Origin: a virus | Reading direction: 5' to 3' (one strand) | Length of the DNA: 25,024 nt | Virus record (IMG/VR): IMGVR_UViG_3300050821_002535 | Location: 1 to 25,024 of that record | Shown here: piece by piece, positions 4,690 to 6,241 of the stretch | Position numbering within the stretch: position 1 is the first letter of the stretch | Layout of the letters: each line of letters opens with the position of its first letter | The notes under the pieces: model-generated | Databases searched by the model: none | What the model was told of the DNA's origin: nothing | What the model saw: the letters and a program-made list of their open reading frames with translations, nothing else | Made by a program: the position numbers and the translations under genes

Positions 4690-4702
4690 TGTAATGATTA
4701 CA
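4690..4702. repeat. Dispersed palindrome, site 8 (upstream of RNA and parB-like gene)
   Basis: Exact TGTAATGATTACA, ending 3 bp before a TTGACT (4705-4710) and 41 bp before the TTGACA of the second promoter. Binding here could control the ParB-family gene itself. Confidence 0.95.
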
Positions 4703-4743: not shown

Positions 4744-4772
4744 TTGACAGGTTTCCCGGTTAGTGAAACAAT
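4744..4772 (+). promoter_or_regulatory. CTTGACA promoter with GTTTC/GAAAC inverted repeat
   Basis: A consensus -35 (4744-4749) is followed after 17 bp by AACAAT (4767-4772), a poor -10. The predicted start is about 4779, only 4 nt before the 5' end of the tRNA-like RNA. GGTTTC (4750-4755) and GTGAAAC (4763-4769) form an inverted repeat across the spacer, a likely operator. Confidence 0.5.
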
Positions 4773-4782
4773 CCGCGAGTCT

Positions 4783-4929
4783 ACCGGGGTGCTGGAATGG
4801 CAGACAGGCAGCCCACCCATGAGCCTTACTTGCTAGACGTAGTAGGTAGGGCTTATGGTAGGGCTGATTAGGGTAGGTGGCATGTCGCCGAAGCCCTTAT
4901 TGTAGGTTCGAATCCTACCCCCGGTACCA
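4783..4929 (+). ncRNA. tRNA-Leu-like RNA with giant anticodon arm and enlarged variable arm
   Basis: The ends fold as a tRNA. The acceptor ACCGGGG (4783-4789) pairs perfectly with CCCCGGT (4919-4925), followed by A and an encoded CCA. The D arm (CTG 4792-4794 with CAG 4805-4807, loop GAATGGCAGA) is of tRNA-Leu type. The T arm is GTAGG-TTCGAAT-CCTAC (4902-4918). A73 and a long variable arm also fit leucine identity. The anticodon arm is not normal: CAGCCC (4809-4814) pairs with GGGCTG (4861-4866), then a further 14 pairs form between 4815-4829 and 4846-4859 with single-base bulges, closed by a 16-nt loop (4830-4845). The variable arm (4867-4900) is an extended hairpin. Total 147 nt against about 86 for tRNA-Leu. 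No ordinary anticodon loop is present, so it is either a tRNA with an unusual insertion or a non-decoding tRNA mimic. Confidence 0.7.
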
Positions 4930-4966
4930 AAGTTCCCCGTAGTTAATCTAAGAGGAGATAACACAA

Positions 4967-6241
4967 ATGGCAAAGCAGAAGGCAATACCCAGTGGTGACT
5001 TAGTACGTCTAGACCCCGCAGTGATCCTTGCAGACAGTAATACCCGATATGGACTCAAACAATCCCGCGTGGACTCTCTGGCAAAGAGCATCCTCGAACG
5101 GGGGGAAGTGTTGGAGCCTGTAGAGGTGGAGATGCTTTCAGAAGCATCTGCCAATGGGCACCAATACCGCCTGACTACCGGATTCTATCGGCTGGCTGCG
5201 GTAGTGGCTCTCAATACAACGGGGGCCGGGTTGACAGTCCCCGCTATCGTCCGTCCCATCCCCACCCCACAAGAGAGACTCCGTAGGCAGTTAGCGGAGA
5301 ACATGGAACGGGAGAATCAGTCCCCGATGGATCAGGCTATTGCTATCCAGAGTCTCCTCGAATCCGGTCTTACCAAGATGGAAGTGAGGGAGATATTCTC
5401 GCGTCCTGGGGGCCGGAAGGGTAACAAGGTCCAGCCCGCATCAAACTCTTTCATCAATATGACTCTATCCTTTCTTGAGCTACCCAAGGGCATCCAAGAG
5501 AAGATACACGATGGCCGGGTTGGTGTAGCTGCCGCGTATGAGTTGACCAAGGTTCCCCCGGACAAGCAGAAGCTAGTTCTCGAACGCGCTGAAGAGGAGA
5601 GACAGAAGGCTCTTGAACGGGAAGAGAAGGATGAGGAGAAGCTCCTCGCTCAAGAGAAACGGCAAGCAGAAGAGGCTAACCAACGGGCCGCAGCACTCAA
5701 GGGTGTTACGGATGCGGAGGCTATCGTCAATGCGTCCAAGGCTGCCCTGGCTGTCAAGACCAAGGCCGCTGAGGTAGCCTATGACTTGTCCAAGGCCAAG
5801 CACCAAGACGCCAAGGCCAAGAAGGAAGCTATCTCCGCCTTCAAGAAGGCAGAGCAAGAGAGACAGCTTGGAGAAGCCGACTTGCTTGCAGTCACAAAGG
5901 AATGGGAGGACTTGCGCGGGAAGTTCGAGAAGCGTGAAGCTCTCATTGCTGAGAAGATGGCGAAGCTCAGGGCAGCCCGCGCACAGGCTCCAGCGGGTGC
6001 GGCTGCTGCCAAGAATGAAGCTGTCGGGTCAGGTGACGTTAAGAAGGCCGCTGCTGCTACGGGAGTATCAACCAATTACGTACCACTGAATGCATCCGAG
6101 ATGCGTAAGGTGGTGAGCGAGCTGTCACTCCCTGGGGGCAACCCGAAGGTGGTGGCGATCGGACAGGCTCTTGTACGGTGCTTTGCTGGCGAAACAACAG
6201 ACAAAGAGCTATACCGAGAGTTACAGAAAGCAGTGGACTAG
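4967..6241 (+). CDS. ParB-family (KorB/Noc-like) DNA-binding protein
   Basis: This 424-residue protein starts after AGAGGAGA. Residues 10-120 form the ParB N-terminal domain: NTRYGLKQSRVDSLAKSI (25-42), TGFYRLAA (71-78) at the position of the GERR nucleotide-binding box, and ENMERENQSPMDQA (111-124) matching ParB box ENxxRE. Residues 134-190 give the helix-turn-helix region (GLTKMEVREIFSR ... INMTLSFLELPKGIQEKIHDGRV). A charged coiled coil follows (about 200-340), then an Ala-rich linker and a small C-terminal domain (370-424), the place of the dimer domain in relatives. The GERR box is changed to GFYR, so nucleotide binding is uncertain. No ParA is seen. A palindrome lies upstream of its promoter and a degenerate one after its terminator. 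It is the best candidate for the factor that binds the dispersed palindromes (inference). Confidence 0.88.
   Translation: MAKQKAIPSGDLVRLDPAVILADSNTRYGLKQSRVDSLAKSILERGEVLEPVEVEMLSEASANGHQYRLTTGFYRLAAVVALNTTGAGLTVPAIVRPIPTPQERLRRQLAENMERENQSPMDQAIAIQSLLESGLTKMEVREIFSRPGGRKGNKVQPASNSFINMTLSFLELPKGIQEKIHDGRVGVAAAYELTKVPPDKQKLVLERAEEERQKALEREEKDEEKLLAQEKRQAEEANQRAAALKGVTDAEAIVNASKAALAVKTKAAEVAYDLSKAKHQDAKAKKEAISAFKKAEQERQLGEADLLAVTKEWEDLRGKFEKREALIAEKMAKLRAARAQAPAGAAAAKNEAVGSGDVKKAAAATGVSTNYVPLNASEMRKVVSELSLPGGNPKVVAIGQALVRCFAGETTDKELYRELQKAVD

Follow-up and report, generated by a model that had tools for sequence, protein, structure and literature searches.

The species 1 RNA of phage T4 (rnaC, 'stable RNA C'; L144:1409-1547) is annotated as a small stable phage RNA, without a function in the annotation; it has been known for decades, and we know of no function that was established for it. 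Matches to it were found in 718 GenBank phage records, including homologues from Tevenvirinae (L207-L211), and it is absent from Rfam. When six homologues were aligned, many changes in the long arm and in the variable arm were two-sided, with the pairing mostly kept. The apical loops of the arm in the anticodon position (TTGACG) and of the variable arm (CGTCAA) were complementary to each other and invariant in 6/6 homologues, which suggests a kissing interaction. Judged by these alignments, at least one known family of tRNA-like phage RNAs has maintained an architecture with an extended anticodon arm. tmRNA likewise joins a tRNA-like end to other RNA in place of the anticodon arm, and in engineered tRNA scaffolds (PMC3753655) the RNA of interest is reportedly placed in the anticodon arm. 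As far as is generally known, the latter follow the same design idea as the element described here, a stable tRNA body showing another RNA, but are artificial.

The element lies in a viral DNA stretch of 25,024 nt (IMG/VR record IMGVR_UViG_3300050821_002535, positions 1-25,024; 'the window'), to which all following coordinates refer unless a record is named; the features described at 4744-6241 lie on the + strand. At 4783-4929, a sequence-only reading had proposed a tRNA-like RNA of 147 nt including CCA, and this was borne out by the fold, the frame count in shuffled sequences and the pair probabilities. The minimum free energy was -77.3 kcal/mol, compared with -52.4 ± 4.0 kcal/mol for dinucleotide shuffles (z = -6.2; 0/200 as low), and the middle of the element alone gave z = -7.5, the most extreme value among 88 elements compared. 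In shuffled sequence, a frame of acceptor, U8 and T arm turned up 0.005 times per 25-kb strand, and never when CCA was required. The tRNA-like structure is thus confirmed as real and its origin by chance unlikely, as had been proposed.

The acceptor 5′ strand ACCGGGG (4783-4789) formed 7/7 pairs with 4919-4925 at probabilities of 0.89-1.0, and the 3′ strand CCCCGGT is followed by A73 (4926) and an encoded CCA (4927-4929), the whole segment spanning 4919-4929. The T arm GTAGG-TTCGAAT-CCTAC (4902-4918; 5 bp) was paired at probabilities of 0.97-0.98. The D arm GCTGGAATGGCAGACAGG (4792-4807) consists of a CTG/CAG stem and the loop GAATGGCAGA, so that the Leu type named in the sequence-only reading holds at the level of sequence; by pair probabilities the stem is thermodynamically marginal alone, and it is supported by its Leu-type sequence and by the covariation seen in similar scaffolds (below). 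The elongated variable hairpin was likewise recovered, with pairs 4870-4874/4893-4897 and 4876-4879/4886-4889 in an extended variable region of 35 nt (4867-4901).

In the anticodon position, an extended arm at 4809-4866 was found to comprise 6 bp (4809-4814/4861-4866), a 2 × 2 internal loop, 19 uninterrupted bp (4817-4835/4840-4858) and a GACG tetraloop, and thus to form a rod of 25 bp. The long arm itself had been described before; its division into 6 + 3 + 11 pairs, interrupted by single-base bulges and closed by a 16-nt loop, was not upheld. All imperfect pairs of the 19-bp stem, four in number, are G-U on the + strand, and the same four would read as A-C mismatches on the - strand, which fits selection on the + strand RNA.

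No tRNA was called in the element by ARAGORN at default settings. With introns allowed, the program proposed a tRNA-Ile(GAT) with a 49-nt insert, at the cost of breaking the best stem, and the Rfam tRNA model RF00005 scored 17 bits against a cut-off of 29. A 5-bp anticodon stem with a 7-nt loop and U33 could not be placed in any position without breaking the 25-bp arm. When the hairpin was cut out from the stem CAGCC/GGCTG, C32-A33 remained; because the next loop bases on this stem are C-A, only a contrived joining of the loop could provide a U33. The RNA cannot read codons in its present form. Two explanations had been offered at the outset, and the tRNA mimic is the better of them, the RNA being genuinely tRNA-like with no usable anticodon loop; a tRNA with an insertion of an unknown kind is weak here, as removal of the hairpin leaves a loop without U33. 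Introns of two known kinds had been discounted with good reason: an archaeal bulge-helix-bulge (BHB) intron (3-nt bulge, 4-bp helix, 3-nt bulge) does not match a 2 × 2 internal loop with 19 bp above it, and a group I intron, with a catalytic core of about 200 nt or more, does not match an arm of only 58 nt in which no Rfam group I match was found. tmRNA was rejected as well, since the ARAGORN tmRNA search was negative and the element, unlike tmRNA, has a D stem and no tag reading frame. A weak Rfam match to NEAT1_2 elsewhere in the window was judged to be due to chance.

With bacterial type II tRNA-Leu (RF00005), the element shares the acceptor, the D-loop type, the T arm, A73, CCA and a class II variable region; it differs in the rod that replaces the anticodon arm, in lacking U33 and a 7-nt loop, and in scoring below the Rfam cut-off. 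In architecture, T4 species 1 RNA is its closest characterised relative, both being about 140 nt long and having, besides a canonical T arm and a long variable hairpin, a long hairpin with interruptions where the anticodon arm would be. In T4 species 1 RNA, the acceptor contains a tandem U-U, a D arm is absent and the annotated span includes no CCA, and the RNA lies within a tRNA cluster, whereas the window element combines a perfect acceptor, a Leu D arm and CCA with a position in an mRNA leader. The two have a common plan and no sequence homology, and the window element can be regarded as a cleaner version of that plan. Loop-loop pairing in the window element reached at best GACGT (4836-4840) with ATGTC (4882-4886), about the level of chance.

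Just upstream of the element, where a promoter had been suspected, TTGACA-17-AACAAT was predicted at 4744-4772. Its -35 box TTGACA (4744-4749) is identical in the parB relatives L002, L003 and L004, its predicted -10 box AACAAT lies at 4767-4772, and an operator-like inverted repeat GTTTC-N9-GAAAC (4751-4769; similar in L002 and L004) is found inside the promoter. Transcription would be expected to start at about 4778-4780. Directly past the insertion point lies the leader segment TTCCCCGTAG (TTCCCCGYAG; 4933-4942), kept in L002, L003 and L004, and it is followed by the ParB-like ORF whose leader holds the element (4967-6241; PHROG ParB-like, 5e-12; Pfam HTH_ParB 22.2 bits, just under the cut-off), in agreement with the ParB-family gene named before.

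The search for related phages that the sequence-only reading had advised was productive for parB and not for the element. Four relatives of the ParB-like ORF were found, a second scan with the parB alignment returned the same four, and none was found among GenBank phages; in the whole records of all four, no tRNA-like structure was detected. L002 (86% identical) and L004 (75%) have the conserved promoter and leader segment with nothing between them. L003 (81%) carries at the same site a different, unrelated structure, a three-way junction of about 85 nt closed by 14 bp (L003:5880-5965; z = -4.2), and the leader region of L005 (45%) was too diverged for comparison. By blastn, no homologue of the element was found in GenBank phages, the matches listed being mainly T-arm/3′-end matches to ordinary phage tRNAs. 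The exact T arm/acceptor was not found in IMG/VR, and the rod hairpin has no second copy elsewhere. From this comparison of sequences, the element was inserted in one lineage, into a leader in which structure is tolerated or at times even favoured. It was gained or lost within the genus and is therefore not essential.

The near-palindrome TGTAATSATTACA was observed at 19 sites with at most one mismatch, from 504 to 23981 across the window (e.g. 4690-4702; 0.03 expected), and the record of each of the four relatives had 19-33 exact copies distributed over its length. Given this distribution, it is a candidate site for the ParB-like or an HTH protein, or a candidate genome-wide operator.

For elements of similar plan, IMG/VR was scanned with a pattern of a Leu D loop, a gap beyond tRNA length and a T loop, and at least 120 stretches fitted it. 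Among the matches listed, 71/80 had 6-7 acceptor pairs and a T stem, and 68/80 had at least 6 acceptor pairs exactly at the tRNA position, for which chance would give about 9% by our own estimate with seven offsets allowed. There were 26 different acceptors in all, and G73 was present in 13/87 members. Most members had the acceptor AGTCAGG/CCTGACT and lacked CCA; RNAs of this type, from uncultivated phages, share with the window element the Leu-type scaffold, the replaced middle and a similar length (124-152 nt). Unlike it, they have another acceptor, mostly no encoded CCA and less structured middles; a single genome carries several of them, and they often lie within tRNA clusters or ahead of terL. 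Across 29 members of the class, covariation was seen in the acceptor, D and T stems (score 0.77 vs 0.21 for shuffled sequences; slid controls at most 0.12), with partner positions fixed and members picked for paired acceptor and T stems, which biases the percentage paired. A broader scan of the retrieved loci gave 185 tRNA-scaffold elements with 150 clusters of middles, several different ones lying on some contigs. L070 and L109, with long hairpins in the anticodon position, come closest to the window element in plan.

Compared with shuffles, pseudoknots in the wider class were only in weak excess (12/91 at p ≤ 0.05) and are therefore not proposed here. Structure in the AGTCAGG-type middles was likewise in weak excess only, so that a function common to the class is not established. 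In GTDB genomes, the scaffold pattern gave 18 matches only, some of which were set aside as integration scars, in which the 3′ end of tRNA-Leu is duplicated, or as scaffold gaps. Such elements are not among the Rfam families, and no description of them was found in the open-access literature. Going by these sequence matches, tRNA bodies with a replaced middle are common in phage sequences and rare in GTDB genomes, for a class that is set by our own pattern and may mix several origins, with metagenomic evidence that comes entirely from uncultivated contigs. Neither this spread of similar scaffolds nor the shared plan of T4 species 1 RNA had been noticed in the sequence-only reading.

Several different AGTCAGG-type RNAs with the same ends and unrelated middles were observed on single contigs (L041, L049, L088, L061, L093, L094). 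An element of this or a similar type was also seen shortly before a gene that was taken, from reading its sequence, for a terminase large subunit in L026, L033, L042, L043, L051 and L121. Two RNA modules were conserved in tRNA-like elements of otherwise different contigs, AATGAGG...CCTCACATTAAACAAAAAAGG in L042, L134, L153 and L062 and TGTCGGTAATCAAGA...GGGTGTATAA in L105, L194 and L094. A T4-type RNA ligase 1 gene was present in the multi-element contigs G013-G016; as a partner of the class, RNA ligase (PF09511) was rejected as not specific, being found in 4/4 multi-AGTCAGG contigs examined but also in 3/6 tRNA-bearing comparison contigs.

We favour, with a probability of roughly 0.5, the reading that the element encodes a non-decoding phage RNA on a tRNA-Leu-type body, with a 25-bp rod and a lengthened variable arm, which would be matured from the parB leader and act in trans. 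This reading is built from the anatomy, strand and position of the element, its lack of a usable anticodon loop, the site being empty in 2/3 close relatives, and the many similar scaffolds. It is supported by the fold and the chance tests, by the G-U pairs of the 19-bp stem, by a site that is occupied here and vacant in L002 and L004 although promoter and leader are conserved on either side, by further viral elements that combine this scaffold with a middle unlike that of a tRNA and whose acceptor, D and T stems covary, by the plan of T4 species 1 RNA, and by compensatory changes in the long arm and the variable arm of L083/L154. Points against it are that no homologue of the element was found, that the element comes and goes within the genus, that structure in the middles of the wider class is only weakly in excess, and that the window element shows no convincing loop-loop pairing of the T4 kind. 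For the start site, RNase P cleavage, CCA end and stability, we infer the following course: transcription from the conserved promoter would begin some 4 nt before the acceptor, the short leader would be cut off by RNase P, and the 3′ end would be trimmed to the encoded CCA. A stable RNA of about 147 nt would thereby be freed, and the parB mRNA would begin at a new 5′ end. Once free, the RNA would most likely work in trans like T4 species 1 RNA, either by occupying a tRNA-binding host factor or by presenting the rod.

The nearest rival, which we consider rather unlikely, places the function in cis: as a 5′-terminal structure, the element would protect the parB mRNA or define where it begins through cleavage by RNase P or RNase III, the freed RNA being functionless. 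The element begins a few nt past the expected start and adjoins the conserved leader segment, and the unrelated three-way junction at the same place in L003 suggests that structure, not tRNA identity, may matter there. A 19-bp duplex suits bacterial RNase III as a substrate, and the rod offers one. Against this, L002 and L004 have no structure at the site, and a stabiliser in cis could do without a D arm, T loop, A73 and CCA.

The remaining alternatives are less likely. An improbable one is a decoy: lacking an anticodon, the Leu-type body would tie up leucyl-tRNA synthetase or some other binder of the tRNA body, or survive anticodon nucleases. The sequence-only reading had suggested a decoy for leucyl-tRNA synthetase, RNase P or the CCA enzyme, or resistance to anticodon nucleases. 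The D loop of Leu type, A73 and the long variable arm agree with such a decoy, and E. coli LeuRS does not read the anticodon; G73 in 13/87 class members speaks against it. Two reports (PMC10264068, PMC11555353) document phage tRNAs that escape defences directed at tRNAs, but the tRNAs in these cases do decode and have anticodons that are altered or specific. Still less probable is a relic, a phage tRNA-Leu gene broken by a small inverted repeat with loss of function: the element is present in one genome only and absent from the relatives, and its hairpin has no copy elsewhere that would point to a function, but all stems are intact, the changes in the rod are all G-U, and decay would not produce many independent RNAs with an intact scaffold and a replaced middle. 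It is very improbable that the RNA is a precursor that yields a decoding tRNA once the hairpin has been spliced out, for although some phage tRNA-Leu(UAA) genes hold a 47-67-nt anticodon-loop insert and ARAGORN with introns proposed tRNA-Ile(GAT), removal of the hairpin leaves C32-A33 and no U33, there is no BHB motif, the insert of the window is not a mini tRNA, and no RNA ligase was found in the window or its relatives, whose records are incomplete.

Beyond the window, we tentatively consider that the tRNA body may serve phages widely as a chassis in non-decoding RNAs with an interchangeable middle, the payload; such RNAs would be stabilised by RNase P and CCA-end processing and serve functions in trans. 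If so, the window element, the AGTCAGG-type RNAs and T4 species 1 RNA would represent one general strategy. By these scans, tRNA-shaped RNAs without an anticodon are common in phages, are missed by default ARAGORN and have no Rfam families. Should they mature and accumulate, they would amount to a large set of phage RNAs that has been overlooked, with possible effects on tRNA enzymes, on defences that detect or cleave tRNAs, or on gene expression.

Two further arrangements involving tRNA-Leu were observed. Phage tRNA-Leu(UAA) genes with the anticodon-loop insert of 47-67 nt occurred in L148, L178, L187, L192, L197, L059 and L183 (and L173/L176/L195/L199). These inserts are themselves shaped like a mini tRNA, with a 7-bp acceptor, a T arm and usually ACCA, and their inner helices covaried strongly in 7 sequences; a tRNA nested in tRNA-Leu(UAA) is possibly a new kind of tRNA intron. 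In Synechococcus podoviruses (T7-like cyanophages; L202-L206), an unannotated 5′ piece of tRNA-Leu was found directly after the integrase gene and is probably an attachment site.
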